Assembly: GCA_009746045.1 (NCBI GenBank)
Contig: RPFO01000648.1
Location: 526,734-590,733, forward strand
From: Mesostigma viride
Taxonomy: Eukaryota > Streptophyta > Mesostigmatophyceae > Mesostigmatales > Mesostigmataceae
Direction of reading: 5' to 3'
Length of the DNA stretch: 64,000 nucleotides
This document shows, piece by piece, positions 5,653-57,297 of this stretch; position 1 is the first letter of the stretch; every line of letters starts with the position of its first letter. The translations under genes were made by a program, and so were the position numbers. The notes beneath the pieces are model-generated. The model saw nothing but the letters and a program-made list of their open reading frames with translations, had not been told where the DNA came from and ran no database searches.

Positions 5653-5748
5653 TGGCTGACACCCAACAGTTTTGTCCTCAATTGAGGACAGTGCAATACT
5701 GTTAATAACTCTCTCACACACAAAAAAATAAATATGGGGCTTTGAAGC

Positions 5749-6174
5749 ATGGTTGATCTTACGATCTGGATTCCCTGATTTGCGACTAAGGGGAGCGGAG
5801 TGCGAGTCGGTGCCGCTGCCTCATGGCTGATCTGCGAGAAATGCTCCTGGAAAGGGTGAAAGTCCCTGCAAATGACCTACGGACTGCATGCTTCCAAGTA
5901 CTTGGATGTAGTTCAAAGTACTTCAGTGGTACTACAGGGTAGTACAATCTACTTCAAACTAGTTCAAACTAGCTCAGGCTAGTAAAGATTCGTTCAGGTG
6001 TAGCACAACCTGCCTAGGAGGTGGTATGACCACCTGGGTTGAAGTAGACAGTGACTAAACGTAGTACAATGTCGAAAGAATCAGTACAAGTGGGTTCTTT
6101 GTAGTACAACTGGTCAGTGGCACCTAGGCGCCGCGCCAGTACTGTACCGGACTTGCATTCGTCACCGTGCGCAT
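5749..6174 (+). repeat. P1 A1 repeat (5' terminal)
   Basis: It starts atggttgatcttacgatc and ends gtcaccgtgcgcat. It contains short GTAGTAC and AACTAGTT modules near 5930-5985 and the block AGGGTGAAAGTCC, which also occurs in the N repeats. It probably holds the promoter and one recombination end. Confidence 0.85.
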
Positions 6175-6319: not shown

Positions 6320-8060
6320 ATGATGGCTAGCGGGGATGAAACGCTAGCGAGACGGGGGATTTACCGCGCGGATTTGCGAGTCGTGTGGAGGAAATCTATG
6401 TGAACCATGGCAGGAACGCCTCAGCTGTCGCCTATTTTATAGCGGCAGAACTCGGCTCTGAATACCCTAAAATATTGTTGCGTAGCTCGGAAAACAAGTT
6501 ACGAAGTTTGGCAGAAAAGCTTCGGATCTTTGGGTTTGAAATCAATGGGTATGACACTCGTGAGGAGCTGGCGCAAAATATTTCAGCCAAGGTGGCGAAA
6601 ATGTTAGCACAAGGTACAACAGGCATTACAAACGATGAGGAACCGAACGGGGACTCCTCAGAGGAGGACACTGATGTCGGGGAAGCTTTGGCAGGGGCCA
6701 AAGAGGAGCAGGCGCAGGGATTTCGCCCCCCAGGTGCTAGCACAGTTGCTGGCGCACCAGGTGCCGTTTTTCCCGCCGTTTTTGGTCATATGGCGCCTGT
6801 CGTCGGAGGGGATGGCAGGAAACAGCTTGCAAATGCAGGGAGGAGCTTGGCAAACGCGGCTGGCGCTAGTTTTGGGGGAGGCGAGGGGGTGTCTGCAGTG
6901 CCACGCTCAGGCACTTTAAAAGCGGGCGCGCGCGGGGGAGGCAAGGAGGAGAAAGCAGGTCTCCCGCGCAGTGCCAAGGGGGACGGGGCGGCCGGAATGG
7001 GACTGAGCCCCGAAATGATGGCGCAGATGAATGCCCTCATGGGGGGCTTCCAACAGCTGGGGATTGGCGGCGCCCAGGGGTTGGGAGCCGCAGTACGGGT
7101 GCCAGCACCCAGCGTGCAGGAAGGGGGCGCATGGGGGGGGCGGGGGCAGCAGGGCCCAGCCCTGCCGGGTGGACAAGCGGGCCCCATGGGTACCCGGGCA
7201 CACCGACAGGCGTGGAAAGAACGCAGGGCCCAGCGTACGCTTACCCAGGGCAGATGGGTGCAGCCTGGCCTCAGCCCTACCCACCAGCGGGTACCGCGTA
7301 CGGTACCTGGGTGCCAGCGGCTGGAACCCCGTACCACATGGCGCTCGCAGCAGCCCAAGGTGGGCAGAGGAAACGGGAGAGCAAGCGGTCCAAGTGCCGG
7401 GAGTGCGGGCATCGGCACTGCCGGTGCACGTCCAGCGACAGCACGAGCAGCGACTCGGAGGGGAGCGGGCGAGGGCGCGCGGGTGGCCGGGGCACAGGTG
7501 GGAGGTTGACCGACCTGCCAGTTACCCGCGGGGTCAACCTGCTCGAGTACCTGCCGGCGGGGCGGGCGCTCAGCGTGGTGTGGGACGTGGAAGACCACAA
7601 GTACCACCAGCGCACGGCCCCCAAGCACATGGAGACCGCCATACAGGGCCACAACGGCAACATGGTGGCCTGGCTGAACGTGCAAAGGGCCCCCGTGCTG
7701 CGCCAGCAGAAGGAGGGGACGGGACTTGGGTGGGCATCCAAGGAGAGGATGGAGCTGGCCCAGAACCTGTGCCACGTCTGGGATACGCTCAACAAGGAGC
7801 TCAGTCCCAACGTGTGCAGCGAGCTGGCGGGCGTGGAGTACCTGGCGCTCTGCGTGGAGGCTCTCCTGCTGGTGGAGACCAGCGGGTCTTGGAACGCGTC
7901 CGGGTACATGCTGCCCTACCGGCCGGCAGGGGGTGTCCGCACGCGGGCGGCTCGACGAGCGCTGCGGGCACACAAGAAGGAGCGCGATGCGTTGGCGTCG
8001 GCGCGAGGAAAGGAGGACAAGGCGGAGGGAGGAGTGGCGGGCTCTTCCCAGAAGAAGTGA
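6320..8060 (+). CDS. P1 ORF1, Gag-like protein (frameshifted)
   Basis: This is the first ORF of P1 and probably its RNA-binding structural protein. I place the start at the ATG of 6320 or 6323, because the residues MASGDETL there align with the P2 start (MASDHEDTTL). The frame changes near 6410 and again in the eight-G run at 7133-7140. After the shifts the protein runs to the TGA at 8058-8060. An N-terminal helical region (LGSEYPKILLRSSENKLRSL) matches P2 (LGPNWAQRLTTMSEGRLTSL). The middle is Gly/Pro/Ala-rich. A small Cys cluster (CRECGHRHCRC) lies near 7400-7430. The C-terminal 150 residues match P2 ORF1 around the conserved LVETSGSWN-like motif. Function is by position and homology to P2 only. 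Confidence 0.65.
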
Positions 8061-11000
8061 GAGGGCGAGGTGTATTCCCCCTCCCAGAGGTGGCCATCAA
8101 GCCCCTCGACCGCGCGCGCCTACGGTCCCGACGTAGGTATCAGCGGGCCATGCGGCGGCGGGCCCTGCTCCTGCGCAGCGCGCGAATCGTGGATGGCCTC
8201 AACTGGTTGTGGAGGGGAGCACAGGAACCGCCTGAAACGGGTCCTGTCGGTGGCATGCGGATGGCTTTGCCCGCACCTGTTGCCCAGGAGCCCGCGGGTT
8301 GCGGTACCAGCGGGGTGTCCTTAGTGACCCCCTGCACTGCGGCCCAGCAGGCGGCCCTACAAGGGCTGGAGATTGCCGCCCAGGTCCATGAGCGCCGGCT
8401 GAGAGCCGTAGCGGCAGAGGACCTGGTGCATGACGTTGAGTCTGGGCCCTATGGGCCCGACGGGCAATATGAAATAATTGCCCCGGAGAGACTTGCGCTG
8501 CCCGCGGGCGGAGTGGCGGGCAGCGTGCCGCTGATGGACTGCCTCCCCCCCAGTGGAGGGAGGTATATGGCAATATAAAAAATATTTTGAGGGAAGAGGC
8601 AGCGCAGCCAGGGCGTCGACGGCGAGTAACGCATGGCTGTGCGAGCGACACGGAGTACGCGCGCCTGAGCGTGCGGCTGGCGGAGACCGGGATGACAGAG
8701 TATAGCGAGGAGGAACCACCGGTCACCAACGGCCTGTTCGGCGTGCCCAAGCGCGATCCAGGGGTGGTGGACCCGTCAGCCCAGCGCCAGCGACTCATCT
8801 GCAACATGGTGCAGAGCAACGACAAGTTCCTCACCCCTGGCAGCTGTTACCTGCCAGATGTGGGGGCGGTGGCCGAGATGGCCGGGGGCGCGCCCAGCTA
8901 CTCGAGTAAAACGGACCTGGAGACGTACTACTACCGCTTCTCTGTGCCAACGGAGTGGCGGAAGTGGTTCGCGCTGCCCCCAGTCTGGTCAGACGAGGTC
9001 GGCCAACCAGGGGAGCGCCGCCGGCTCTATCCCAGGTTCCGTGTTCTGGTGATGGGGTGGTCCCACTCGGTCCTGTTGGCGCAGGTGGCGCACATGCAGA
9101 CCCTGTTCGGGCCGGGGAAGCTGAACCCCGGGCTGAGTGTGAGCGTCCCGATGCATCAGCTCGGGGTGCGCACAGTGCGTGAGGGAGGACGGGAGTGGAT
9201 GGAGTTGGTGGGGGCCGCCGAGCTTGACTGGCAGCTGCTGCCCGAGGACCCTCCTCGGCCGGCGCAGTTGGTCATGATCGACGACCTGGGCACCACACAC
9301 GCGCGCAGCGCAGCGGAGGCGAACGCGCTGCTGGACCGCGCATGCACTGAGTGCTACGCGCCAGCTGGCCTGGTGGTGAATGAGAAAAAGGTCGAGCGGG
9401 CGCGGGAGGGCCAAGCTGTGGAGATCCTGGGCATCGAGTTTCACCAAGATGGGAGCTTGTGGCCGTCGGCGAAGCGACTAGCCCTCCTCGTCCATGACAC
9501 TGAGGCGGTGCTGGCCCGGGGACGAGCAAGCTACCATGAGCTGGCCTCCCTACTGGGACGCTGGGTATGGATCCAACTGCTTCGCAGGAGTCTGCTAAGC
9601 ATCTGGTTCCATGCCTACAGGATGCTCCACCAAGTGCTGGCCCTCCGCAAGGGAGGACGCTTCCAACTCTGGGCAAGTGTGCGCCGGGAGCTCTGGGCGG
9701 CTGTCTGCCTGGCTCCCCTGGTGCATGCGCAGCGCAACCAGCCGCTGGACACCACCGTCGTGGCCAGTGACGCGTCGAGCCGGGGCTCCGGTGTGGTGTA
9801 CGCCCGTCTGGCAGAGGCAGACGTGAAAGCTTTGTCCAACTGCCGTGAGATGAAGGGGTGGAAGACTCTGTGTGTCGGGTCGGAAGAGGTCGGTGTGGAG
9901 CGAACGGGGGAGAGGGAACATCGGGCGGTGGCGACCGCCCGCTGGCGTGTGGCGGTGAAACACCGGTGGAGGGACGCGGGTGCGCACATCAATGAGAAAG
10001 AGGCGCGCGCAGCCGTGCAGAGCCTGGAGTGGGGGCTGCGCACGCGGGCCCGGTGGGGGCGACGGCACGTACGGCTGGTGGATAGCTCCGCCGTTCTGGG
10101 CGCACTGGTGAAGGGGCGGTCATCATCTTACCGCCTCAACACGTGGTGCCGCCGCGCTGCCGCCCTGGGCTGTGCCAGCAACACCAGGTACCACTGGGTG
10201 TACATCCGCTCGGAGCGAAACCCCGCGGACGCGCCCAGCCGGGGCCGGTGGGTGCGGGACCTTACCGCCGATGGCGATGTGGAGAGTAACCCGGGGCCGG
10301 GAGGGCGGCAGGAGCTACTGGAGAGCACCGTGCTGCCCGCGACCCTGCGCAGCTACCATCGCGCAGTGATCGCGTACCTTCTTTGGGCTGAGCCCTATGG
10401 TGCTGTACCGCCGGAGGAAGCGGAGAGCGTGTTCTGCGAGTGGCTCGTGTCTGTCTACGAGGATGGAGGGGGAGCAGGGCGTTCCATGTGCATGAGGGCG
10501 CTGTGTGGGCTGCAACTGTACTACCCCAGCCAAGTGCAGGGGTGGCGCGAGGCCCGCCGACTCCTGTACGGGTGGCAGCGACGCGTGCAAACCCATAGCC
10601 CCAATCCGGTGCCGTGGGAGCTGCTCTACCTGGTGGTGCAGATCCTCCGCTGGCAGGGGGCGCCCATGGCAGCAGCCGTGTGCGTCATCACTTTCCAGCA
10701 ATACCTGCGCATCGGGGAGGCCTTCAAGCTCCGAGTGGGGGACGTGGCGCTGCGCGGCGACCGTCGCCTGGGGCAGCGAGGCCTGGGCGCGCTGCTTCTG
10801 CGGGATCCCAAGACAGCCAAGGGGGGTGCACAGGCGGTGGTGGTGCAGGACCCCCTCTCGCTGTACGTGCTCGAGCGCCTGTGCGCTGGGCGGGAGCCCG
10901 AGGAGCCCTTGTTTGGGAGCCTCAACTACAGCCAGTTCTCTCGTCGGTGGCACGCGGCGTGGGATGTTCTGGGCCTGCGGGGGATGTTTCCGCCCTACTC

Positions 11001-11202
11001 CATGCGACATGGTGGGGCAACGTACGACTACCTGCAGGGCGTTTCACTCCCAGACATCCAGAAGCGCGGGCGTTGGCGCCAGTTCAAGTCGGTGGACCAC
11101 TACGTGGGCCTGCACCGTGCTCTAGCGGTGCAAGTGCCGCGGTGGGTGTGGTTGCTGGCTGAGGAGTTCCCCCCCGCTCAGTGGAGTTCACACTGGCAGT
11201 AG
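8058..11202 (+). CDS. P1 ORF2: reverse transcriptase-RNase H-2A-tyrosine recombinase polyprotein
   Basis: ORF2 overlaps the end of ORF1 in another frame (conserved VRGRGVxPLP) and is broken once, in the seven-C run at 8526-8532. From 8587 it is open for 871 codons. Using that numbering: RT motif A TDLETYYYRF (Asp110), a motif-B-like VMGWSHSVLL, the active site MIDD (Asp232/233), then GLVVNEKK and ILGIEF. RNase H shows Asp395, Glu470 or Glu472, Asp499 and Asp548 (NPADAPSR). A DVESNPGP 2A motif occupies 564-571. The recombinase shows Arg708 (YLRIGEA), Lys742 (PKTAKG), Arg807-His808 (SMRHGG), GRW 828-830 and Tyr839. All catalytic positions appear present. Predicted role: copy RNA into DNA and integrate the product. 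Confidence 0.9.
10276..10299 (+). other. 2A ribosome-skipping motif in P1 ORF2
   Basis: The codons read D-V-E-S-N-P-G-P in frame, preceded by LTADG. This matches the 2A consensus D-[VI]-E-x-N-P-G-P, at which the ribosome fails to form the Gly-Pro bond. It lies 15 residues after the last RNase H Asp and about 137 residues before the first recombinase Arg, so skipping would release the recombinase with an N-terminal Pro. Confidence 0.88.
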
Positions 11203-11634: not shown

Positions 11635-11654
11635 AATAAACAAGTTCTGGTGCC
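11635..11654 (+). promoter_or_regulatory. P1 polyadenylation signal and conserved 20-nt block before B1
   Basis: AATAAACAAGTTCTGGTGCC is identical in P2 on its own sense strand, although the surrounding sequence has diverged. AATAAA is a standard polyadenylation hexamer. The extra conservation suggests another role, such as defining the RNA 3' end next to B1. Confidence 0.6.
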
Positions 11655-11694
11655 TTCTCAAACAAAGTGAACCTGAAAGCATGCACAGAGGATG
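11655..11694 (+). repeat. P1 B1 repeat
   Basis: This 40-bp sequence (ttctcaaacaaagtg...cagaggatg) is identical to B2 at 12115-12154. It directly precedes A2, giving the PAT-type order B1-A2-B2. Confidence 0.85.
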
Positions 11695-12115
11695 GTTGAT
11701 CTTACGATCTGGATTCCCTGATTTGCGACTAAGGGGAGCGGAGTGCGAGTCGGTGCCGCTGCCTCATGGCTGATCTGCGAGAAATGCTCCTGGAAAGGGT
11801 GAAAGTCCCTGCAAATGACCTCTGGACTGTGCTTCCAAGTACTTGGATGTAGTTCAAAGTACTTCATTGGTACTACAGGGTAGTACAATATACTTCAAAC
11901 TAGTTCAAACTAGCTCAGGCTAGTAAAGATTCGTTCAGGTGTAGCACAACCTGCCTAGGAGGTGGTATGACCACCTGGGTTGAAGTAGACAGTGACTAAA
12001 CGTAGTACAATGTCGAAAGAATCAGTACAAGTGGGTTCTTTGTAGTACAACTGGTCAGTGGCACCTAGGCGCCGCGCCAGTACTGTACCGGACTTGCATT
12101 CGTCACCGTGCGCAT
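11692..12115 (+). repeat. P1 A2 repeat
   Basis: This is a 424-bp near-identical copy of A1. It differs by a 2-bp gap and a few substitutions between 11821 and 11890. Confidence 0.88.
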
Positions 12116-12154
12116 TCTCAAACAAAGTGAACCTGAAAGCATGCACAGAGGATG
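12115..12154 (+). repeat. P1 B2 repeat (3' terminal)
   Basis: It is identical to B1. The element ends here and X sequence (atcatttatgatg) follows. Confidence 0.85.
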
Positions 12155-12458
12155 ATCATTTATGATGTGTTTGAGAGTTCCAATGCTTAACATCATCCAT
12201 ATGTGCGCATTTCCTATTTAATTATGAATTGTTACGTGCAGGGGGGCCTGCATCGGCAACCAAGGAAAACCCTCCACTAGAATGTACGAGAGAATGAGAC
12301 ATAAAGACCATGCTTCCAAGGACCACAAGCGGTCAGCAAACCCATAGGACACCTCCCTAACATGTGGCAGCCACCCCGGGGCTGCCCATGCTTGGCCACC
12401 TCACGGAAGGCTATGACAGACGGCCAGGAACCCGATACGAGCAATTGCACTTGGCAGA
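12155..12458. other. X sequence between P1 and P2a, no gene seen
   Basis: This belongs to element X. I see no ORF or RNA gene. Its last 44 bp (12415-12458) are repeated with one mismatch at 18496-18539 on the other side of P2a. Confidence 0.6.
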
Positions 12459-12495
12459 CCCCCCAAGACAAAACAGAAAAGGGTGGGTGGGTGGG

Positions 12496-12930
12496 GAAAA
12501 CTGATAAGCTGGCTTGGCAGCCATCACCACCTTGAAATACATCGCATCAACGTTGCATCCGTGACACACGCAAGTGCGGCGCCCCGCTGGCGCGGCGCTC
12601 CATGTAAGAATGACCTCAGAATACTACTGTACTAGATCTAGGACCCTGATACTACTTTTTATCTTGAGGGTCCCTGGATACTAGTTGAAGTAGATTGAAC
12701 TAGTTTGAACTAGTTTGTACTACCTGTACTAACTTTGAACTAGTTTGAACTACATCTGAGGCCCATCCAAGGCTGTCAGACCCTCCAGAGAGGGCGTGGC
12801 CACCCCGTTTGGCTCCCGCATGTCGACTTGCACCACTGGGCAACGGTGTAGCGCCTCCAAGGTAGCGGCGCACCTCCATCCCTCCGCTCCCCCAGGCAAA
12901 ATCAGGGAATCCCGATCGTAAGATCAATCA
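12496..12930 (-). repeat. P2a A2 repeat
   Basis: This 435-bp copy of 18061-18495 starts (on the - strand) tgattgatcttacgatcggg. It contains AACTAGTT and GTACTAC modules near 12680-12750. Confidence 0.85.
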
Positions 12931-12967
12931 TCCACTGTGCATTGCCTAGGTCCACTTCTGGTTGAAG

Positions 12968-12987
12968 GGCACCAGAACTTGTTTATT
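12968..12987 (-). promoter_or_regulatory. P2a polyadenylation signal and conserved block
   Basis: On the - strand it reads AATAAACAAGTTCTGGTGCC, the same 20 nt as in P1, just upstream of the B1-like segment. Confidence 0.6.
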
Positions 12988-13158
12988 ACACTATATGTTG
13001 AAGCCGACCGGACTTAGTAGACAGAGAGACATAAAATATTTTTTGGCAGTCCCTGGCCGCCGCTTCCACTTGACCCGCATCTCCAACCTGGCCGCAGGCC
13101 GTACATCTGGAAACCGCGTCAGGAGCCATGGGAGGGCACATCCTTACCCTCCAGCTGG

Positions 13159-13192
13159 TGAAGCCCTAGCGTGTCCGCTAGAGTGCGCCTCA
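13159..13192 (-). ncRNA. P2a 3' hairpin
   Basis: On the - strand the outer stem TGAGGC/GCTTCA (extendable by two pairs) and inner stem CTAGC/GCTAG have the loop ggacac and the invariant GCACT internal loop. It lies shortly after the ORF2 stop. Confidence 0.6.
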
Positions 13193-13210
13193 CCGAAGTA
13201 TGGCCGAAAT

Positions 13211-16200
13211 CTACGGCCCAAAGTGACGACGCCAGTCACGGGGGGGCAGTCTGCCCGCGAGGTCCCACACCACCTGGGGCACCCGCACCTGCAGGGCGCG
13301 GTGGAGCCCCACGTAATGGTCCACGGACGAAAACTGGCGCCACCGGCCACGCTTTTGGATGTCCGCGATTGGTACCCCGCGCAGGTAGTCATGGGTGGCC
13401 CCCCCGTGGCGCATGCTGTAGGGTGAAAACATCCCCCGCAAGCCAAGGAGGTCCCAGGCGGCGTGCCACCGCCGCAAGAAACGGCTGTAGCTGAGTGCGC
13501 CAAAGAGCAGCTCCTCGTGCGCCCGCCCAGCACACAGGGCGCCAAGCAACGTGAGTGAAAGGGGCTCAACAACCACCACTGCCTGGGCCTGGCCCTTGGC
13601 TGTCTTGGGGTCGCGTAGCAGCAGCGCACCCTGGTTACTGGGCCCCAGGCGGAAGTCCCCGCGCAGAGCCACGTCCCCCACGCGAAGCTTGAACGCTTCT
13701 CCGATGCGCAAGTATTGCTGAAAAACAATGATGCAGCAGCAGGCAGCTAATATCGAGCCTTGTGCACGAAGAATGTTTGCCACGAGGTACAGTAGCTGCC
13801 ACGGGACGGGGTGAGGGCTCTGCACGGGAACTCGTCGCGCCCAGCCGGCCAGCAAGCGACGCGCCTCGTACCACCCCTTAATCTCGTTGGGGAAGTACAG
13901 CTGCAGCCCGCATAATGCGCGCACAACCATGGTCCGGCTTCCCCCTTCCTCATACACGCTGACCAGCCACTCACAAAAGACGCCTTCCGCCTCCGTCTTG
14001 GCCACGGGAGCGAGGGGTTGACCATACTCCACGTACGCCCTCAGCGCTCGGTGATATGCAGCTAGCGTGCTGGGCTGCACAGTGGCCTCCAGCAATTCCT
14101 GCCGCCCATGTGGCCCCGGATTGCTCTCCACGTCGCCATCCGCAGTGAGGTTGCGCACCCATCGACCACGACTGGGCGCGTCGGCCGGGTTGCGCTCCGA
14201 CCTCACATACACCCAGTGGTAGCGGGTGTTGCTGGCCAGCCCTAGCGCGATCGCCCGGCGGCACCAGGCGTTCAGCCGGTAGGACGACGAACGCCCTTTG
14301 ACGAGCGCACCGACAACTGCCGAATTGTCCACCAGCCGCACGTGACGTTGCTGCCAGTGAACCTGTGAGCGCAGGCCCCACTCGATCCCTTGCACAGCCG
14401 CACGAATCTCCTTCTCGTTGATGTGGGCCGAGGGATCGAGCCACCGGTGGGCAAGAGCGGTCCTCCACTGCGCCGCTGCCATGGCTCGGTGCTCAATCTC
14501 CCCTGTGCGCTCCACGCTGGCCGTCTCAGAGTCCACACAGAGCGTCTTCCAGCCCTTCCGCTCCCGACAGTTGGACAGGCCACGCACCGCAGGCGCCTCC
14601 CACCGGCTGTACACCACCCCAGAACCGTGGGTTGACGCATCAGTGGCCACCACGGTGCAGCTCAGGGGCTGGTCGCGCTGCGCATGCACCAGCGGGGCCA
14701 AGTCCATTGCAGCCTGGAGCTCTTCCCTTACACTACCCCACAGCCGATAGCTCCAGCCCCGCTTGTGCACCAGGACTTGCTGCAGCAAGCGGTAGGCGTG
14801 AAACCAGATGGACAGTAGACCCCGACGCAGCAAGTGGACCCACACCCACCGTCCCAGCAACGAGGCCAGTTGGTGGTAAGTGGCCCGTCCACGCCCCAGC
14901 ATTGCCTGCGTGTCGCGCACCAAGGCCGCCATCCGGGCCGCGCTCGGCCGCATGGACCCGTCCTGGCAGAACTCAATCCCCAAGATTTCCACCGGGCGCC
15001 CCTCCTCAGCTCTCTCCACCTTCTTCTCGTTGACCACCAACCCCTTGGGACCGTAGCTCTCCTCGCACGCCTTGGTGAGCACGGCGTTGGTCTCCTCCGC
15101 GCTCCGCCCATGGGTGACCCCCAGATCATCGATCATGACCAGCTGAGCGGGATGTGGGGGATCCTCCGGCAGCAGCCGCCACGCTGCACTGGCTGCGCTC
15201 TCCACCAACTCCAGCCGGTCCATGCCATCCCCGCGCACTGTGCGCACCCCCATCAAGTGCATGGGATATGACAGCCCTCTCTTGGCATCGAGCACCCCGC
15301 CCCGTAGAGACAGTGCAGGTGGGCAACCTGTGCAAGGACCACCGAGTGGCTCCAGCCCATGACAAGGACCCGGAACCTGGGGTACAACTTTCGCCGTCGT
15401 CCCAGCTGGCCGACCTCATCGGACCACACGGGGGGCAGCGAGAAATAGGGGCGCCAGCTCTCAGGTACCTCGAACCGGTAATAGTAGGTGTCAAGGTCTG
15501 TCTTGCCCGAATAGCATGGCGCCCCCACACTCAGCTCAGCGACCTCGCCCAAGTTAGGCAGGTAACAGGTAGGCGGCTTGAGGAAGCGCCGGTTGCACGG
15601 CACCATATTCCCTATAAACCGCTGCCGTCGTTCGCTGGGCTCCACAACCCCGGGGTCTTTCTTGGGGACGGCAAAACAGCCGTTCACCACAGGGGCGCCT
15701 CCTCACTGTACTCGATCATCCGCGTCTCCGCCAGCCTGATGCTCAGTCGTGCGTACGCCGCATCGCTTGCACAACCATGAGACACCCGGCCCCGCCGCAT
15801 CCACGCCCCCGCCTCCGCGTCGCATCTTTGTAGAATGTTGTTTATGTCCTCATACGTCCTCTGCCATGCCTCCGGCAGGCAGTCCAGCAGCTTGACACTA
15901 CCTGCAGCTCCTCCTTTTGGCAGTGCCAGCCTCTCCGGGTCAATAATTTCGTATTGACCGCCCGGCCCGTATGGCGCGGGCTCTGCGTCCCCCGTGTCTG
16001 TCGCCTCCGCTACGGCGGTAAGCCGGCGGTTGTAGACGCGGGCAGCATCCTCCATCCCTTGTAGGGCGGCCCTTTGGGCGACGGTGCAGGGGCTCGCAGT
16101 AATAGCCTGCTGCTGCACCGCCGGTCCACCGGACCGTTCCCGGGTCCTGCCCCACAGCCAGTTCAGGCCCCTTGTGGCCCGCTCTTGACACCGCAGCCTT

Positions 16201-16305
16201 GCTCTGGCACGCAGAGCGCGCTGCAGCCTGCGGTTGGATCGCAGGCGGCTGCGGTCGAGCGGGGGACCATCTTCACTGGCAGCGGGAGCACACCCCTGCC
16301 CCTCA
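13211..16305 (-). CDS. P2a ORF2: RT-RNase H-2A-tyrosine recombinase (frameshifted)
   Basis: Three reading frames join into one protein homologous to P1 ORF2. The first part (16305-15684) starts after LDRSRLRS and ends in EYSEEAPLW. The second (15690-15253) carries the RT motif TDLDTYYYRF and MGWSHSVVLAQ. The third (15295-13211) carries MIDDLGVTH, GLVVNEKK, the RNase H motifs (TDASTHGSG, HINEKE, LVDNSAVVG, NPADAPSR), the 2A motif and the recombinase motifs (YLRIGEAFKLR, SMRHGG, GRWRQF, DHYVGLH). Both frame breaks correspond to one missing base in a C or G run and are shared with P2b. One further G is missing near 16259-16263 relative to P2b. The C-terminus (DWRRHFGP) matches the P1 end. Confidence 0.85.
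14111..14134 (-). other. 2A ribosome-skipping motif in P2a ORF2
   Basis: DVESNPGP is preceded by LTADG, identical to P1 although neighbouring residues differ (HGRQELLEATVQPS against GGRQELLESTVLPA). It lies between RNase H and the recombinase. Confidence 0.88.
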
Positions 16306-17043
16306 CTTGTCCTTTTTGGCCGCCGCCGCCGCCGCCGATGCCAGCTCCGCCTCCTGGCGAGCCGCCTTCCGCGCTGCCCGGGCTGCTGCGCTTCCAATAG
16401 TACTGCCCTCCACCAGTGGCAGCAGGTGCATCGCCCCGTTGTTCCAGCCGCTGGTCTTCTCCACCATGAGGAACGCCTCGACCACACGCGCCAGGTACTC
16501 GAAGCAGGCCAGCTCCGTCACCACATCCTCCCCCAGCTCTTGGATGGCCACATCCAGAATGTAGGTCAGGTTGTTGCACACCAGATGGTGCGTGCTGTTC
16601 TTCCACCCGCGGGGGGCTCCCGGTGCAGCCCCAACGCCCTCCTGCTCCTTGCGAAGGGCCAAGCGGGCCTGCAGGCTCCCGTGCGCGACCTGGCGCGCAT
16701 CCAGCACCTGCAGCGGCAGCACCCTGTCGTCGCGGTCCTTGACCAACAGGCGCCAGGCCACTTTGAAAGCTCGCCGGGGGAGACGCACCCCCTTGGTGGT
16801 TCGGCGCAGGTCTCTCTCCCTCACACGCTCCCGCGATCGACGCGAGCTCCGCTGGGAGGAGTCCCGACTCGTGCTCCGGCTGCTGGACCGCTGCCGCTCC
16901 TTGCGACGCTCGCGGGAGCGATCCCGACGCCCCTTGGGCTCCGCAGAACGGCCCCTGCCATGCCCACGTCGCTCCCGGGACTTGTCGCGGCGCGACCGAG
17001 CGCCACCCCTGCCCCTGCCACGGCCTCTGCTCTCGCTGTCGGA

Positions 17044-17108
<65 letters not shown>

Positions 17109-17831
17109 GCGACTCTCGTCGCTCCCACTGCTGGTGTCTGTCGAGCCTGGGCTGCTCCCGCGCCGCGCGCGTCTCTTCTCCTGGCGCTTGCTCTTCGGAT
17201 GGCCCTTGCCCCCCTTGTCCTCGCGCTGGCTCTTCCCTTTCCTCGCGTCCCTCCTCTTCCCCCGCGCCAGGGCTTGCAACTCCGCTCCGATGAGCTCGCG
17301 GACGCCCGCCAGAAGGGCAGCATTCTCTGCCAGCTTTCGGTTCCTGCCCTGAGACTTCTTTCCCTTGGCGCGAGCAGCAGCAGGGGCCAGCTGCTCGCGC
17401 GCGTCCAAAAAATCCTCAGAGCTCGTCGCGTCCTCCTCTTCCTCGTCGGTGCCGTTGCTGGGAGGATCCTTTCGGGTCCTTTCGCCCCTGGCTGGACCAG
17501 TCTTCCCCTTGCCCCCAGTGGCCACTGGGGGCTTCTTCATCTCTAGAGTAATGGCCTTGCACAACATGGAACCCATGTCGGAATCACTTGACCCCTCACT
17601 AATCTGGAGCCCTGCAGTCTTGAGAAACTGTCCCAAGGATGTCAAACGACCCTCAGACATAGTAGTAAGCCTTTGGGCCCAGTTTGGACCGAGATACTCA
17701 GTCAAGAACTTCAAAGTCGTTAACAGCTCCTTGCCCCCCTGAAAATACGATTTTTTCACATTTAATAAGAAATCTCGGTCTACTGCCTCAAGGGTGGTGT
17801 CTTCGTGATCACTAGCCATTATAGAATGCAA
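16303..17831 (-). CDS. P2a ORF1, Gag-like with Ser/Arg-rich domain (frameshifted)
   Basis: This is the same protein as the intact P2b ORF1, but a 2-bp difference at the end of the CTG/CAG run (about 17050-17110) breaks the frame. The N-terminal part reads in one frame from 17831 and the C-terminal part (RERDLRRTTKGVRL onward) in another to the stop at 16303. In the wrong frame the repeat becomes poly-Ala, so the full Ser/Arg domain is lost in this copy unless the difference is an assembly error. Confidence 0.75.
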
Positions 17832-18060
17832 AGATGAAGAAATTTCTCACAACTAGGCTCAATATTCCGCAATCTTGGAGACTGAGAAAAATTTCGGACT
17901 GAAAATTTGTCACTCAGTTCTACCTTGCGGACTTTTACTCCCGTTGCGCAAACCCGTCAAAACTAGGTGCGAAAACCGTCAAAATGTTGTCGGCTATTGT
18001 CTCACGATTAGTTTGACACCAACTTTGTCAAAAACGGTGAAGTATTGCTCTAGTTGTGTT
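17832..18060 (-). other. P2a 5' untranslated region
   Basis: This AT-richer leader lies between A1 and the ORF1 start. It repeats TTTTGACGG-like motifs and has no ORF of note. The same leader is at 26287-26515 in P2b. Confidence 0.55.
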
Positions 18061-18495
18061 GAAAACTGATAAGCTGGCTTGGCAGCCATCACCACCTTGA
18101 AATACATCGCATCAACGTTGCATCCGTGACACACGCAAGTGCGGCGCCCCGCTGGCGCGGCGCTCCATGTAAGAATGACCTCAGAATACTACTGTACTAG
18201 ATCTAGGACCCTGATACTACTTTTTATCTTGAGGGTCCCTGGATACTAGTTGAAGTAGATTGAACTAGTTTGAACTAGTTGGTACTACCTGTACTAACTT
18301 TGAACTAGTTCGAACTACATCTGAGGCCCATCCAAGGCTGTCAGACCCTCCAGAGAGGGCGTGGCCACCCCGTTTGGCTCCCGCATGTCGACTTGCACCA
18401 CTGGGCAACGGTGTAGCGCCTCCAAGGTAGCGGCGCACCTCCATCCCTCCGCTCCCCCAGGCAAAATCAGGGAATCCCGATCGTAAGATCAATCA
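18061..18495 (-). repeat. P2a A1 repeat (5' terminal)
   Basis: This 435-bp repeat matches A2 with a few substitutions. Like A2 it lacks the 84 bp found in both P2b A repeats. Confidence 0.85.
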
Positions 18496-18539
18496 GACAG
18501 ACGGCCAGGAACCCGATACGAGCAATTACACTTGGCAGA

Positions 18540-20777: not shown

Positions 20778-20832
20778 ATGGCGGCCACTGTGGCAGCTGT
20801 GAACAAAGTCAAGCATTCCCAGATTATCAACG
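20778..20832 (+). pseudogene. C1 gag, 5' end (interrupted by P2b)
   Basis: The ATG at 20778 opens MAATVAAVNKVKHSQIIN. The last 53 bp (20780-20832) are duplicated at 27035-27087 on the far side of P2b, where gag continues. This is a retrotransposon capsid-region start. Confidence 0.75.
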
Positions 20833-20880: not shown

Positions 20881-21399
20881 GAAAACTGATAAGCTGGCTT
20901 GGCAGCCATCACCACCTTGAAATACATCGCATCAACGTTGCATCCGTGACACACGCAAGTGCGGCGCCCCGCTGGCGCGGCGCTCCATGTAAGAATGACC
21001 TCAGAATACTACTGTACTACATCTAGGACCCTGATACTACTTTTTTCAACATTGTACTACATTTTTATGATGTCACACATGTTCTGTCATGCCAGAACCG
21101 TTCAGCAACCACCTGGCATATCTTGAGGGTCCCTGGATACTAGTTGAAGTAGATTGAACTCGTTTGAACTAGTTTGAACTAGTTTGTACTACCTGTACTA
21201 ACTTTGAACTAGTTCGAACTACATCTGAGGCCCATCCAAGGCTGTCAGACCCTCCAGAGAGGGCGTGGCCACCCCGTTTGGCTCCCGCATGTCGACTTGC
21301 ACCACTGGGCAACGGTGTAGCGCCTCCAAGGTAGCGGCGCACCTCCATCCCTCCGCTCCCCCAGGCAAAATCAGGGAATCCCGATCGTAAGATCAATCA
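20881..21399 (-). repeat. P2b A2 repeat
   Basis: This 519-bp repeat matches the A1 copy and contains an extra block (about 21044-21120) and one extra AACTAGTT-type module relative to P2a. Confidence 0.85.
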
Positions 21400-21612
21400 T
21401 CCACTGTGCATTGCCTAGGTCCACTTCTGGTTGAAGGGCACCAGAACTTGTTTATTACACTATATGTTGAAGCCGACCGGACTTAGTAGACAGAGAGACA
21501 TAAAATATTTTTTGGCAGTCCCTGGCCGCCGCTTCCACTTGACCCGCATCTCCAACCTGGCCGCAGGCCGTACATCTGGAAACCGCGTCAGGAGCCATGG
21601 GAGGGCACATCC

Positions 21613-24600
21613 TTACCCTCCAGCTGGTGAAGCCCTAGCGTGTCCGCTAGAGTGCGCCTCACCGAAGTATGGCCGAAATCTACGGCCCAAAGTGACGACG
21701 CCAGTCACGGGGGGCAGTCTGCCCGCGAGGTCCCACACCACCTGGGGCACCCGCACCTGCAGGGCGCGGTGGAGCCCCACGTAATGGTCCACGGACGAAA
21801 ACTGGCGCCACCGGCCACGCTTTTGGATGTCCGCGATTGGTACCCCGCGCAGGTAGTCATGGGTGGCCCCCCCGTGGCGCATGCTGTAGGGTGAAAACAT
21901 CCCCCGCAAGCCAAGGAGGTCCCAGGCGGCGTGCCACCGCCGCAAGAAACGGCTGTAGCTGAGTGCGCCAAAGAGCAGCTCCTCGTGCGCCCGCCCAGCA
22001 CACAGGGCGCCAAGCAACGTGAGTGAAAGGGGCTCAACAACCACCACTGCCTGGGCCTGGCCCTTGGCTGTCTTGGGGTCGCGTAGCAGCAGCGCACCCT
22101 GGTTACTGGGCCCCAGGCGGAAGTCCCCGCGCAGAGCCACGTCCCCCACGCGAAGCTTGAACGCTTCTCCGATGCGCAAGTATTGCTGAAAAACAATGAT
22201 GCAGCAGCAGGCAGCTAATATCGAGCCTTGTGCACGAAGAATGTTTGCCACGAGGTACAGTAGCTGCCACGGGACGGGGTGAGGGCTCTGCACGGGAACT
22301 CGTCGCGCCCAGCCGGCCAGCAAGCGACGCGCCTCGTACCACCCCTTAATCTCGTTGGGGAAGTACAGCTGCAGCCCGCATAATGCGCGCACAACCATGG
22401 TCCGGCTTCCCCCTTCCTCATACACGCTGACCAGCCACTCACAAAAGACGCCTTCCGCCTCCGTCTTGGCCACGGGAGCGAGGGGTTGACCATACTCCAC
22501 GTACGCCCTCAGCGCTCGGTGATATGCAGCTAGCGTGCTGGGCTGCACAGTGGCCTCCAGCAATTCCTGCCGCCCATGTGGCCCCGGATTGCTCTCCACG
22601 TCGCCATCCGCAGTGAGGTTGCGCACCCATCGACCACGACTGGGCGCGTCGGCCGGGTTGCGCTCCGACCTCACATACACCCAGTGGTAGCGGGTGTTGC
22701 TGGCCAGCCCTAGCGCGATCGCCCGGCGGCACCAGGCGTTCAGCCGGTAGGACGACGAACGCCCTTTGACGAGCGCACCGACAACTGCCGAATTGTCCAC
22801 CAGCCGCACGTGACGTTGCTGCCAGTGAACCTGTGAGCGCAGGCCCCACTCGATCCCTTGCACAGCCGCACGAATCTCCTTCTCGTTGATGTGGGCCGAG
22901 GGATCGAGCCACCGGTGGGCAAGAGCGGTCCTCCACTGCGCCGCTGCCATGGCTCGGTGCTCAATCTCCCCTGTGCGCTCCACGCTGGCCGTCTCAGAGT
23001 CCACACAGAGCGTCTTCCAGCCCTTCCGCTCCCGACAGTTGGACAGGCCACGCACCGCAGGCGCCTCCCACCGGCTGTACACCACCCCAGAACCGTGGGT
23101 TGACGCATCAGTGGCCACCACGGTGCAGCTCAGGGGCTGGTCGCGCTGCGCATGCACCAGCGGGGCCAAGTCCATTGCAGCCTGGAGCTCTTCCCTTACA
23201 CTACCCCACAGCCGATAGCTCCAGCCCCGCTTGTGCACCAGGACTTGCTGCAGCAAGCGGTAGGCGTGAAACCAGATGGACAGTAGACCCCGACGCAGCA
23301 AGTGGACCCACACCCACCGTCCCAGCAACGAGGCCAGTTGGTGGTAAGTGGCCCGTCCACGCCCCAGCATTGCCTGCGTGTCGCGCACCAAGGCCGCCAT
23401 CCGGGCCGCGCTCGGCCGCATGGACCCGTCCTGGCAGAACTCAATCCCCAAGATTTCCACCGGGCGCCCCTCCTCAGCTCTCTCCACCTTCTTCTCGTTG
23501 ACCACCAACCCCTTGGGACCGTAGCTCTCCTCGCACGCCTTGGTGAGCACGGCGTTGGTCTCCTCCGCGCTCCGCCCATGGGTGACCCCCAGATCATCGA
23601 TCATGACCAGCTGAGCGGGATGTGGGGGATCCTCCGGCAGCAGCCGCCACGCTGCACTGGCTGCGCTCTCCACCAACTCCAGCCGGTCCATGCCATCCCC
23701 GCGCACTGTGCGCACCCCCATCAAGTGCATGGGATATGACAGCCCTCTCTTGGCATCGAGCACCCCGCCCCGTAGAGACAGTGCAGGTGGGCAACCTGTG
23801 CAAGGACCACCGAGTGGCTCCAGCCCATGACAAGGACCCGGAACCTGGGGTACAACTTTCGCCGTCGTCCCAGCTGGCCGACCTCATCGGACCACACGGG
23901 GGGCAGCGAGAAATAGGGGCGCCAGCTCTCAGGTACCTCGAACCGGTAATAGTAGGTGTCAAGGTCTGTCTTGCCCGAATAGCATGGCGCCCCCACACTC
24001 AGCTCAGCGACCTCGCCCAAGTTAGGCAGGTAACAGGTAGGCGGCTTGAGGAAGCGCCGGTTGCACGGCACCATATTCCCTATAAACCGCTGCCGTCGTT
24101 CGCTGGGCTCCACAACCCCGGGGTCTTTCTTGGGGACGGCAAAACAGCCGTTCACCACAGGGGCGCCTCCTCACTGTACTCGATCATCCGCGTCTCCGCC
24201 AGCCTGATGCTCAGTCGTGCGTACGCCGCATCGCTTGCACAACCATGAGACACCCGGCCCCGCCGCATCCACGCCCCCGCCTCCGCGTCGCATCTTTGTA
24301 GAATGTTGTTTATGTCCTCATACGTCCTCTGCCATGCCTCCGGCAGGCAGTCCAGCAGCTTGACACTACCTGCAGCTCCTCCTTTTGGCAGTGCCAGCCT
24401 CTCCGGGTCAATAATTTCGTATTGACCGCCCGGCCCGTATGGCGCGGGCTCTGCGTCCCCCGTGTCTGTCGCCTCCGCTACGGCGGTAAGCCGGCGGTTG
24501 TAGACGCGGGCAGCATCCTCCATCCCTTGTAGGGCGGCCCTTTGGGCGACGGTGCAGGGGCTCGCAGTAATAGCCTGCTGCTGCACCGCCGGTCCACCGG

Positions 24601-24774
24601 ACCGTTCCCGGGTCCTGCCCCACAGCCAGTTCAGGCCCCTTGTGGCCCGCTCTTGACACCGCAGCCTTGCTCTGGCACGCAGAGCGCGCTGCAGCCTGCG
24701 GTTGGATCGCAGGCGGCTGCGGTCGAGCGGGGGGACCATCTTCACTGGCAGCGGGAGCACACCCCTGCCCCTCA
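21613..24774 (-). CDS. P2b ORF2: RT-RNase H-2A-tyrosine recombinase (frameshifted)
   Basis: It has the same domain order as P2a. The N-terminal segment is in the expected frame here (GVLPLPVKMVPPLDRSR, possible start Met near 24738). The two internal frame breaks (near 24160 and 23750) are identical to P2a, each one base short in a C or G run. RT (TDLDTYYYRF, MIDD), RNase H, 2A and recombinase motifs are all visible. Near 21710 P2b has six G where P2a has seven, so its C-terminus runs on past the natural end to 21613. Confidence 0.85.
21628..21661 (-). ncRNA. P2b 3' hairpin
   Basis: It has the same sequence and fold as in P2a: CTAGC/GCTAG inner stem, GCACT internal loop. Confidence 0.6.
22579..22602 (-). 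other. 2A ribosome-skipping motif in P2b ORF2
   Basis: DVESNPGP is identical to P2a and in frame between RNase H and the recombinase. Confidence 0.88.
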
Positions 24775-25512
24775 CTTGTCCTTTTTGGCCGCCGCCGCCG
24801 CCGCCGATGCCAGCTCCGCCTCCTGGCGAGCCGCCTTCCGCGCTGCCCGGGCTGCTGCGCTTCCAATAGTACTGCCCTCCACCAGTGGCAGCAGGTGCAT
24901 CGCCCCGTTGTTCCAGCCGCTGGTCTTCTCCACCATGAGGAACGCCTCGACCACACGCGCCAGGTACTCGAAGCAGGCCAGCTCCGTCACCACATCCTCC
25001 CCCAGCTCTTGGATGGCCACATCCAGAATGTAGGTCAGGTTGTTGCACACCAGATGGTGCGTGCTGTTCTTCCACCCGCGGGGGGCTCCCGGTGCAGCCC
25101 CAACGCCCTCCTGCTCCTTGCGAAGGGCCAAGCGGGCCTGCAGGCTCCCGTGCGCGACCTGGCGCGCATCCAGCACCTGCAGCGGCAGCACCCTGTCGTC
25201 GCGGTCCTTGACCAACAGGCGCCAGGCCACTTTGAAAGCTCGCCGGGGGAGACGCACCCCCTTGGTGGTTCGGCGCAGGTCTCTCTCCCTCACACGCTCC
25301 CGCGATCGACGCGAGCTCCGCTGGGAGGAGTCCCGACTCGTGCTCCGGCTGCTGGACCGCTGCCGCTCCTTGCGACGCTCGCGGGAGCGATCCCGACGCC
25401 CCTTGGGCTCCGCAGAACGGCCCCTGCCATGCCCACGTCGCTCCCGGGACTTGTCGCGGCGCGACCGAGCGCCACCCCTGCCCCTGCCACGGCCTCTGCT
25501 CTCGCTGTCGGA

Positions 25513-25565
<53 letters not shown>

Positions 25566-26286
25566 GACTCTCGTCGCTCCCACTGCTGGTGTCTGTCGAG
25601 CCTGGGCTGCTCCCGCGCCGCGCGCGTCTCTTCTCCTGGCGCTTGCTCTTCGGATGGCCCTTGCCCCCCTTGTCCTCGCGCTGGCTCTTCCCTTTCCTCG
25701 CGTCCCTCCTCTTCCCCCGCGCCAGGGCTTGCAACTCCGCTCCGATGAGCTCGCGGACGCCCGCCAGAAGGGCAGCATTCTCTGCCAGCTTTCGGTTCCT
25801 GCCCTGAGACTTCTTTCCCTTGGCGCGAGCAGCAGCAGGGGCCAGCTGCTCGCGCGCGTCCAAAAAATCCTCAGAGCTCGTCGCGTCCTCCTCTTCCTCG
25901 TCGGTGCCGTTGCTGGGAGGATCCTTTCGGGTCCTTTCGCCCCTGGCTGGACCAGTCTTCCCCTTGCCCCCAGTGGCCACTGGGGGCTTCTTCATCTCTA
26001 GAGTAATGGCCTTGCACAACATGGAACCCATGTCGGAATCACTTGACCCCTCACTAATCTGGAGCCCTGCAGTCTTGAGAAACTGTCCCAAGGATGTCAA
26101 ACGACCCTCAGACATAGTAGTAAGCCTTTGGGCCCAGTTTGGACCGAGATACTCAGTCAAGAACTTCAAAGTCGTTAACAGCTCCTTGCCCCCCTGAAAA
26201 TACGATTTTTTCACATTTAATAAGAAATCTCGGTCTACTGCCTCAAGGGTGGTGTCTTCGTGATCACTAGCCATTATAGAATTCAA
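24772..26286 (-). CDS. P2b ORF1, intact 504-aa Gag-like protein with Ser/Arg-rich domain
   Basis: This is an open frame of 504 codons from ATG at 26286 (MNSIMASDHED; the second Met matches P1). The N-terminal 110 residues are predicted helical (YLGPNWAQRLTTMSEGRLTSL). An acidic patch (DEEEEDATSSEDF) and a Lys/Arg-rich basic region follow. Next is a Ser run encoded by AGC triplets (about 25505-25562), then an RS/RE/RD-rich stretch of about 80 residues (RDRSRERRKERQRSSSRSTS) like the RS domains of splicing factors. The C-terminal 150 residues, conserved with P1, end AAAAAKKDK. The expected role is RNA binding and particle formation. The RS domain suggests nuclear targeting or phospho-regulation. 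No zinc knuckle is seen. Confidence 0.82.
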
Positions 26287-26515
26287 AGATGAAGAAATTT
26301 CTCACAACTAGGCTCAATATTCCGCAATCTTGGAGACTGAGAAAAATTTCGGACTGAAAATTTGTCACTCAGTTCTACCTTGCGGACTTTTACTCCCGTT
26401 GCGCAAACCCGTCAAAACTTGGTGCGAAAACCGTCAAAATGTTGTCGGCTATTGTCTCACGATTAGTTTGACACCAACTTTGTCAAAAACGGTGAAGTAT
26501 TGCTCTAGTTGTGTT

Positions 26516-27034
26516 GAAAACTGATAAGCTGGCTTGGCAGCCATCACCACCTTGAAATACATCGCATCAACGTTGCATCCGTGACACACGCAAGTGCGGC
26601 GCCCCGCTGGCGCGGCGCTCCATGTAAGAATGACCTCAGAATACTACTGTACTAGATCTAGGACCCTGATACTACTTTTTTCAACATTGTACTACATTTT
26701 TATGATGTCACACATGTTCTGTCATGCCAGAACCGTTCAGCAACCACCTGGCATATCTTGAGGGTCCCTGGATACTAGTTGAAGTAGATTGAACTCGTTT
26801 GAACTAGTTTGAACTAGTTTGTACTACCTGTACTAACTTTGAACTAGTTCGAACTACATCTGAGGCCCATCCAAGGCTGTCAGACCCTCCAGAGAGGGCG
26901 TGGCCACCCCGTTTGGCTCCCGCATGTCGACTTGCACCACTGGGCAACGGTGTAGCGCCTCCAAGGTAGCGGCGCACCTCCATCCCTCCGCTCCCCCAGG
27001 CAAAATCAGGGAATCCCGATCGTAAGATCAATCA
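26516..27034 (-). repeat. P2b A1 repeat (5' terminal)
   Basis: This 519-bp repeat has the same length and the same extra block as the A2 copy of this element. Confidence 0.85.
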
Positions 27035-27087
27035 GGCGGCCACTGTGGCAGCTGTGAACAAAGTCAAGCATTCCCAGATTATCAACG

Positions 27088-38328: not shown

Positions 38329-39892
38329 TTAATGGCTGGTAGGGTCGGCGGCGGCCCGGTAGCCCTTGACCGCACTGTCATGGGCCTGGCGCATCTGGAC
38401 CAGCAGCCTCTCCACCCCTTCGAGGGTGTCTCGCCGGACGGACTTTTCAGCTAAGGCTTGGCTTGTGAGAAGGTCAGTCGGCGTGAGCGGATGCCTGCCC
38501 GTGTTGAGGAAGAATGGTGTGAAGCCATGAGCTGCCTGGGGGGCGTTATTCAGGGAGAACTCCACCAAACCCAAGAACTCTTCCCAGTTGCTTCCCACCG
38601 CGTCGGTGTAGTGGCGCATGGTCTCTTGCACTGTGCGGTTCAGCCTCTCCACCAGGTGGGAGGACGAGCTGTGATATGCTGTCCCCAGCGACACCTTGGT
38701 GCCCAGGCATTCAAAGAACTCCTGCCAGAAGCGGGCCGTGAACAGCTTGTCTCGGTCCGATATGAATTGCCGGCTGAGTCCGTGGTACCTAAACACGTGG
38801 TGAAGGTATAGCTTAGCGCAAGCCTCGGCCGTGAGCTCGGCCGGACATGGTGCCAGGTGACACATGCGCGTCAAACGGTCCAGGAAAACCAGAATCATGT
38901 TGTTGCCATTCTTGGTCTTCCGGAAGGGGCCAACAAAATCCATCATCAAGGAATCCCAAGGGCCCACAGGGTCTGGTAGGGTCTGGGGGACCGCCTGTGA
39001 GCCCGTATTGCGGGACTTCATGATCTGACATGATGGACACTCACGCACGTACGTCTCAATGTACTCTCGCATGCCTGGCCAGTAGAAGTTCTTTCGGGCC
39101 CGTGGCAGCAAGCGGTGGATCCCTTGGTGGCCACCGGCGAGAGAGTCATGGAGCTCATGGAGCAGAGCCGCTCGACATATCTCCGGGACGTACAGGCGCC
39201 AGCAGTCTGGCCTCACCATGACATAGAGTCGCCCGTCCTGGAACTTGCACGGGAGCTTGCCCATCTGCTTGGGGTGCGACCTGATTGCCTCTAAGGCCGC
39301 GGGCTCCATGACAGTGAACCGACTAATCAACGTCTCCAGGACAGAAGTGATCGTGTACGTGTCCGCCTCCTCCTCAAGGATTTGGTGCACGTACTCCGAA
39401 AAAATGGTAGGGGGCCCGATGCACTGCAGGTGAAAAATTCCCTGAGCCGGTACCACGTGGCTGAGTGGCACTCGTGACCGGGACCCCTCCCTTTCCCCGG
39501 GGGCGCGCACGTCCTCCCGCGCGGCCTCCCAGTCGGGAGACAGGTCGTCCTGGGTCGTGCGACCGGTGTGGAACAGATAGCGACTGTGCGGCGACTTGTT
39601 GCGGGGCTGGGTGGCTTCCCGCTCGTGCGTGATGTTATGCACGTCGGGGCCCTGCATTTGGTATTCGCTGACAGGACTCCAAAAGGAACCGTCAGGGAAC
39701 CACACCACGCGACGCCGAATGCTAATGTCCACATCCTGCGCGTCCAGCCAGTCGATGCGGATGATGATGTCTGCAGCTCCAAGCGGTGCGACCGTGGCTT
39801 TGTTCGCAAACGGTTTCCATCCCATGGCAGCAGCCGCCTTAAGATAGAGACCTGCCACGGGCGGACGTTGACAGCGCAAAAATTCTGCAGCT
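38329..39892 (-). CDS. G2: Gypsy-type integrase with protease-like remnant, no RT
   Basis: A 541-codon open frame whose first 20 codons come from M1. In G2 proper, the N-terminal part has a retropepsin-tail pattern (APLGAADIIIRIDWL, VVWFPDGSFW) matching G1 (TADVLLGLDWH, VIWFPDSSYW). A zinc-binding region follows (HDSLAGGH...CPSC). Then comes an integrase core with Asp in MMDFVGPF, Asp in SDRDKLF and Glu in HLVERLNRT, all three catalytic residues being present. RT and RNase H are absent between protease and integrase. The gene continues upstream at 49320-49529, separated by M1+M2. It may be a deletion derivative or an integrase gene of another kind. Confidence 0.7.
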
Positions 39893-39896
39893 TTAA
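39893..39896. other. TTAA target duplication, left side of M1
   Basis: TTAA flanks the M1 inverted repeat. TTAA or a one-base variant recurs at the ends of M2 and M4. Confidence 0.6.
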
Positions 39897-39986
39897 GGGG
39901 TCCGGACGGACCGGAATTATTTCGCGCCAAAAAATTCGCGCCGGTACCCGGCACGTGAAATTGTGGTGCACGATGCGCGTAACCCT

Positions 39987-53282: not shown

Positions 53283-53768
53283 AGTTAGTCTCCATGCTTT
53301 GCTGTAGACTAAGTCTCAAAGGCATTGTGAATACAACGTATGAATAAGCCCTGTAAACCTACGTTGGTATGTGAATATAAATACCACGTGGGCTATGCAG
53401 ATAGGAATGCTAGTCGAGTCGCATACGTTTCCCTAGATAATAGGTACTTTGGGTACTGGGGTACGTGACAGATGTCAGTACCCAGTATACGTAGTGTCCT
53501 GTCATTGGACGGTACTAGAGTATCCTAGATAGGGACCGTACTGCAGCGTGCATTAATCTGTGATCACACGATGCAGTGACTAGACTGCTACCTGTCATCG
53601 TGCGGCCTCGGGCCAACGGTCTGCACCCAACGGTCACTGGCGGCGCAGCCAGTGAGAGGAACGTTGATAAAGGGTAAACCTATTTTCTAATGAACCAAGC
53701 AATTCATTGCTCACAGCATACAGTGTTCTCAAGCAATATATCACGTCGTTCATTTCTCATTCCTAACT
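53283..53768. mobile_element. Z: solo-LTR-like insert with AGTTAG...CTAACT ends
   Basis: 486 bp flanked by gcaat (53278-53282 and 53769-53773), splitting the G1 RT codons for FLGIA / SYYRRF. It has a TATA-like tatttatattc (- strand). The ends resemble those of Y. Confidence 0.55.
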
Positions 53769-57208: not shown

Positions 57209-57297
57209 AAGAGGACGGACACGTAGTGGTAGGGATGATTCAGCTCCTACAGAAGTTATAAAAACAGGCAGGCAAAAATTATTATCTGGGGTACTAT

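Follow-up and report, generated by a model that had tools for sequence, protein, structure and literature searches.

Mobile elements of the PAT/Ngaro type, which belong to the DIRS order, encode RT-RNase H together with a tyrosine recombinase, and their layout we take to be A1-ORFs-B1-A2-B2. In APE-type non-LTR elements a 2A peptide lies near the N-terminus of the RT protein; such peptides were reportedly described by Heras in 2006 and Odon in 2013, in L1Tc and in sea urchin elements. According to the accessible text of three sources, natural 2A sequences are largely viral, and cellular cases are those in non-LTR retrotransposons and in certain immune receptors of sea urchins (PMC12846837, PMC4981915, PMC11512398); viruses, non-LTR retrotransposons and NLR proteins are the bearers listed in the available portions of a 2024 review (PMC11512398) and a 2016 paper (PMC4981915). 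The accessible part of a 2026 survey in PNAS defines the core of the peptide as (D/G/C/N)(V/I)ExNPGP, with six upstream classes, and states that viruses of the streptophyte lineage use 2A almost never (PMC12846837). The same part describes motif 4 as DLTxDG-like; its extended form is WV(R/K)DLTx[acidic]G, and D is preferred at p12, S at p15. In vitro, a natural example tested in reticulocyte lysate reached almost 100% activity, and nearly all mutants of the characteristic residues had lost it (PMC12846837).

Here we describe a candidate 2A in the genome of the streptophyte alga Mesostigma viride, within a window (the whole stretch of DNA that was analysed) of 64 kb. The elements that carry it resemble APE-type non-LTR elements in being eukaryotic mobile elements in which a D(V/I)ExNPGP peptide is in frame, but differ in the location of that peptide, between the RT-RNase H and the tyrosine recombinase of a DIRS-order element, and in its upstream context, which is of the motif-4 kind rather than L-rich. 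Context and core are the same as in motif 4 of RNA-virus StopGo sequences, whereas the Mesostigma case is carried by a streptophyte algal genome. As in PAT/Ngaro elements, RT-RNase H is accompanied by a tyrosine recombinase, and one copy (P1) has the split direct repeats A1-ORFs-B1-A2-B2; in contrast to those elements, the two enzymes are divided by the putative 2A. A limited literature search found no paper combining ‘2A peptide’, ‘tyrosine recombinase’ and ‘retrotransposon’, and DIRS was not found among the literature matches listed; this limited search did not contradict the view expressed in the original prediction, that no 2A is known between RT-RNase H and the tyrosine recombinase of DIRS-order elements. 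A working 2A at this locus would extend such peptides to another retroelement order and to the streptophyte lineage, and would offer a natural candidate from the green lineage that is possibly useful for plant/algal gene expression.

Element copies and the position of the motif

The window holds one copy on the plus strand (P1) and two on the minus strand (P2a and P2b), with the following features.

5746..6174, plus strand: P1 left direct repeat A1, 429 nt, 98.4% identical to 11689-12115 (self-BLASTN)
6340..8060, plus strand: P1 Gag-like ORF1, in two frames, 6340-7509 and 6870-8060 (blastp)
8057..8578, plus strand: start of P1 ORF2, RT N-terminal part, in the 7031-8578 frame, which breaks near its end
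8473..11202, plus strand: P1 ORF2 with RT (catalytic DD 270-271), RNase H, putative 2A and tyrosine recombinase, one frame of 909 codons
10219..10242, plus strand: NPADAPSR, conserved RNase H end, P1
10249..10275, plus strand: putative 2A upstream context WVRDLTADG, P1 (viral StopGo motif 4, compared by eye)
10276..10299, plus strand: putative 2A core DVESNPGP, P1 (six-frame scan and codon comparison)
10294-10296 (G608) and 10297-10299 (P609), plus strand: predicted release point of P1, between these residues (from the core position)
10297..11199, plus strand: tyrosine recombinase, predicted free product with Pro first, 301 aa (PF00589 and Cre/XerC-like matches)
11652..11694, plus strand: P1 repeat B1 (self-BLASTN)
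11689..12115, plus strand: P1 repeat A2 (self-BLASTN)
12112..12154, plus strand: P1 repeat B2 (self-BLASTN)
12496..18495, minus strand: P2a element, between 435-nt terminal direct repeats 12496-12930 and 18061-18495
14111..14134, minus strand: putative 2A core of P2a, inside the open frame 13211-15415 (minus)
20881..27034, minus strand: P2b element, between 519-nt terminal direct repeats 20881-21399 and 26516-27034
22579..22602, minus strand: putative 2A core of P2b, inside the open frame 21613-23883 (minus)

A six-frame scan confirmed that DVESNPGP, as had been predicted, is in frame in all three copies, inside the long open frames listed above; indeed D.E.NPG occurs at only three sites in the six frames of the 64-kb window, 10276 (plus), 14134 (minus) and 22602 (minus). 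The motif had also been placed between RNase H and recombinase, and in each copy it does lie after NPADAPSR and before the recombinase. The core, in an open frame, conforms to (D/G/C/N)(V/I)ExNPGP, as would be the case for a member of the 2A/StopGo class. From the composition of P1, D(V/I)ExNPGP is expected about 1.3e-6 times per 909-residue protein and 1.8e-4 times over all six reading frames of the window.

Assignment to the DIRS order reflects the presence of a tyrosine recombinase rather than a DDE integrase or endonuclease, and of RT and RNase H, the latter two being predicted from fold matches on a low-confidence model. PF00589 (Phage_integrase) was matched after the motif in P1 at E 4e-4, below the Pfam cut-off, in P2a and P2b above the cut-off, and in nine of the ten members of alignment A1 (E up to 0.1); in the recombinase, R746, R845, H846, W868 and Y877 are conserved at 90% or more. 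RVT_1 was found in two of the ten members, and DD270-271 is invariant. Searched against the PDB, the profile of alignment A1 gave 22 matches up to E 1, the best being an RT (‘POL protein’) at 0.0015 and an XerC-like protein at 0.005, and Cre chains were also matched, the RT, XerC-like and Cre matches all being weak; the recombinase part alone, searched by sequence, gave no PDB matches. The predicted structure of P1 matches MMLV and HIV RTs and Cre/Tre, and only its domain layout was used because the model has a mean pLDDT of 57.8 and a pTM of 0.31.

The P1 order A1-ORFs-B1-A2-B2 constitutes split direct repeats and supports a PAT/Ngaro-like layout. P2a and P2b have terminal direct repeats, and a B1/B2 pair was found in neither. 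ORF1 of P1 is called Gag-like by position only; it had no Pfam match, and each of its frames partly matches the P2 Gag-like ORFs, the second frame also matching P0010 (blastp). With 99.5% identity over 5577 nt, P2a and P2b are not mutually independent, and the independent comparison is that of P1 with P2, at 71.7% amino-acid identity. The terminal repeats within a copy are 99.5% (P2a) and 99.8% (P2b) identical, and those of P2a differ from those of P2b by one indel and about 4% over 281 nt; because the repeats are alike within each copy and differ between the two, P2a and P2b probably inserted separately and recently. In each of the three copies RT is disrupted further upstream; RNase H, 2A motif and recombinase remain in one frame, except at the very end of P2b, where the residues depart from those of P2a. 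Broken in RT, the window copies may themselves not be active, which counts against a working 2A.

At the junction of the two ORFs, the stop of ORF1 and the frame of ORF2 share the overlap GTGA (8057-8060 in P1, 24772-24775 in P2b), there is no ATG, and in both copies ORF2 is in the -1 frame relative to ORF1, an arrangement that suggests reinitiation or frameshifting for ORF2. Elements of the DIRS order insert without duplicating their target site, and inspection by eye revealed no target-site duplication of P1. P2a is flanked by 44-nt direct repeats of 97.7% identity (12415-12458 and 18496-18539) and P2b by 53-nt direct repeats of 100% identity (20780-20832 and 27035-27087); the two pairs differ in sequence and resemble long target-site duplications, which insertion by a recombinase would not be expected to leave. 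At one end of P2a, flank and terminal repeat are separated by 37 nt (12459-12495) that also occur in P2b.

Constraint on the motif and its upstream context

The original prediction held that LTADGDVESNPGP is unchanged between P1 and P2 despite their divergence, and the alignment bears this out at 71.7% amino-acid identity over 685 codons; directly upstream of LTADGDVESNPGP, D596 in P1 is N in P2. When synonymous and non-synonymous changes were compared, as the prediction had proposed, the 18 codons of RWVRDLTADGDVESNPGP were found to differ between P1 and P2a by nine synonymous changes and one non-synonymous change (D596N), and the last 12 of these codons by six and none, against a background over the 685 aligned codons of pS 0.645, pN 0.202 and dN/dS 0.16. 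This pattern, from one sequence pair, is that of selection on a peptide whose nucleotide sequence is free, and supports, at the sequence level, purifying selection on the motif. Absence from close relatives had been named as an outcome that would speak against a 2A; the core is present in P0004, P0005, P0006 and P0009, in which position x in DVExNPGP is filled by S, A, R and T and the remainder is constant, at 61-79% pairwise identity within the set. Among five members (P0001, P0002, P0004, P0005 and P0006, with P0008 excluded because it nearly duplicates P2 and P0009 because it is cut short), seven of the eight core columns and six of the nine context columns are invariant; the invariant share is 52% for RT-RNase H, 53% for the recombinase and 9 of 18 immediately downstream of the motif. 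Between P1 and P2, 67 of 653 segments 17 residues long match at 16 or more positions. Of 650 segments 18 codons long, 23 carry no more than one non-synonymous change, and 13 of these 23 start at residues 580-592, which correspond to the RNase H end and the 2A motif. The conservation of the motif is thus strong but not unique within the protein.

Upstream of the core, P1 has WVRDLTADG, preceded by R (RWVRDLTADG), and comparison by eye shows that WVRDLTADG-DVESNPGP agrees with motif 4 at every position given in the accessible text of the survey; the upstream context would therefore be that of a 2A/StopGo sequence, a reading made by eye and set alongside a control for chance. In this control the core octamer was sought in prokaryote contigs (GTDB), which yielded at least 120 stretches, 119 of them with usable frames, and for this reason the core octamer by itself does not prove a 2A. 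Among the matches listed, 83 of the 119 frames are open for 30 codons upstream, and none has more than four of the nine context residues in common with P1. P2, P0004, P0005 and P0006 each share eight of the nine. In P0009 the core is retained and the context shares only four of nine with P1, equal to the best chance frame, which counts against a working 2A. A chance origin of the motif was rejected on the basis of the three in-frame sites, the low expectation and the context in prokaryote contigs.

Two of the 119 control frames have LLLLSG before the core, giving LLLLSGDVE(I/T)NPGP. One (L057, 191-3664) is on a contig filed under a Bathymodiolus symbiont and encodes RT; with LLLLSGDVEINPGP near the N-terminus of this RT-encoding ORF, it is a likely example of the non-LTR type. 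The other (L050, 4669-5757) is on a contig filed under a bacterial MAG and has no Pfam match. Both are probably eukaryotic sequence inside prokaryote assemblies. In IMG/VR, no relative was found with P0006 or alignment A1, and the motif-4 DNA pattern gave no stretches.

Relatives and the RNase H boundary

The relatives comprise 39 proteins (P0004-P0042), drawn from the 7993 candidates sharing most words, the only ones scored, and are thus a sample rather than a census. P0007 is encoded by the window itself and P0008 is a Mesostigma copy of P2, to which P2a is identical from GLSYPMHLMG onward (688/688 residues; Mesostigma viride Mesvir1, EukProt), a match in line with Mesostigma as the very probable host. 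An uninterrupted ORF2 with the 2A motif, of 1029-1054 aa, is found in P0004, P0005 and P0006.

The RNase H end motif, NP(A/T)D..SR or MP(A/T)D..SR, is present in 32 of the 39 proteins, and 23 of these 32 terminate 1-27 residues past it, at ends that presumably represent stop codons. The predicted release point of P1, 18 residues past R590, is inside this range of natural ends. Among the other nine, P0004-P0008 carry the 2A motif followed by the recombinase; P0009 has the core and then 19 residues to its end, without a recombinase, which counts against a working 2A; P0011 and P0027 have a fused recombinase without 2A; and P0029 ends 65 residues past the RNase H end motif. The end motif is absent from P0010, P0024, P0026, P0035, P0040, P0041 and P0042, of which P0024 and the gene model P0035 match P1 over RT and recombinase, again without 2A. 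As four relatives (P0011, P0024, P0027 and P0035) fuse RT and recombinase without 2A, separation of the two is not needed in every relative, which counts against a working 2A. Even by a relaxed pattern, the 2A core was found in none of the 33 proteins outside P0004-P0009, which include P0010, a Mesostigma protein that stops short of the region.

Proposed mechanism and alternatives

A 2A motif in the single ORF of a DIRS-order element, as originally proposed, has gained support from context, constraint, relatives, predicted loop position and recombinase matches, and we consider it very likely that the motif works as a 2A (StopGo) element separating RT-RNase H from the recombinase. Ribosomes translating ORF2 would make RT-RNase H up to ...DVESNPG, at which point the nascent chain in the exit tunnel would block formation of the Gly-Pro bond and be released; the same ribosome would then continue from Pro609 to produce the tyrosine recombinase as a free protein. 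StopGo would in this way replace a stop codon and separate expression of the recombinase. Indeed, since 23 of the 32 relatives with the RNase H end motif end where Mesostigma has the motif, the 2A most likely stands in for a stop codon. Skipping and its efficiency are here deduced from sequence, and the benefit would presumably be that the freed recombinase could act on nuclear DNA. With more reserve, we favour the broader proposal that a family in the green plant lineage uses a viral-class StopGo instead of a stop codon to produce its integrating recombinase, which could make it the first such peptide to occur naturally in Viridiplantae and the first in the DIRS order, and that recoding here replaces termination at a fixed boundary, at which relatives show ending, fusion or 2A. 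The occurrence of all three at one boundary means that the family allows a test of why an element might gain StopGo, whether for dosage, for freeing the recombinase or for both.

It could be argued that the peptide only resembles a 2A and is conserved between RNase H and recombinase for a linker or binding role. Constraint of this kind is common to other blocks of the protein, so that a linker or binding function could in principle account for it, and conservation runs upstream into RNase H (residues 579-595 are an identical run in P1 and P2). The motif is inside a low-confidence stretch of the AlphaFold2 model (579-621), flanked by the predicted last RNase H strand (572-577) and first recombinase helix (611-618). 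A plain linker at this position would, however, be expected to drift, as it does in distant relatives, which end here or carry unrelated linkers. In addition, context and core fit the viral StopGo class as set out in the accessible text of the survey, including its p12 and p15 preferences, and only about 1e-6 such motifs are expected by chance per protein. A linker is thus extremely unlikely.

Two further possibilities concern how well the peptide works. It may be an inactive or weak relic that was active in an ancestor or donor and now yields mainly fused protein, as the broken RT of the window copies and the degraded context of P0009 might indicate. The synonymous change with almost no non-synonymous change between P1 and P2, and the conservation of the core in the full-length ORFs of P0004-P0006, make such a relic highly improbable. 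Alternatively, skipping may be partial by design, setting a ratio of fused and free recombinase, both of which are used. Use of 2A at partial efficiency is described, in the accessible text of the survey, in sea urchin proteins whose signal sequence is followed by a 2A (PMC12846837), and forms fused without 2A exist in P0011, P0024, P0027 and P0035; the motif-4 example tested in that source was, however, almost fully efficient (PMC12846837). This arrangement, a sub-case of a working 2A whose probability overlaps with that of the main proposal, seems unlikely to us. The preferred reading remains that of a working 2A between RT-RNase H and recombinase.

Several observations lie outside these arguments. 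The recombinase of the Mesostigma family has Tyr in YS(M/L)RHGGAT (P0001 residues 842-846, 10996-11010), and the same position is His in P0011, P0024 and P0027; His (HxxR) is usual at this position in tyrosine recombinases. There were no Rfam matches in the window, which contains more retroelement pieces on the minus strand (38332-40017, 52257-53315 and 56270-57412), with integrase (rve, H2C2), RT RNase H and gag aspartyl protease. Finally, 10 of the 15 distant relatives (P0028-P0042) have a C-5 DNA methyltransferase domain (PF00145) in the RT-matching protein, and the name of one of the 15, P0028, starts with Skav, presumably a dinoflagellate prefix.
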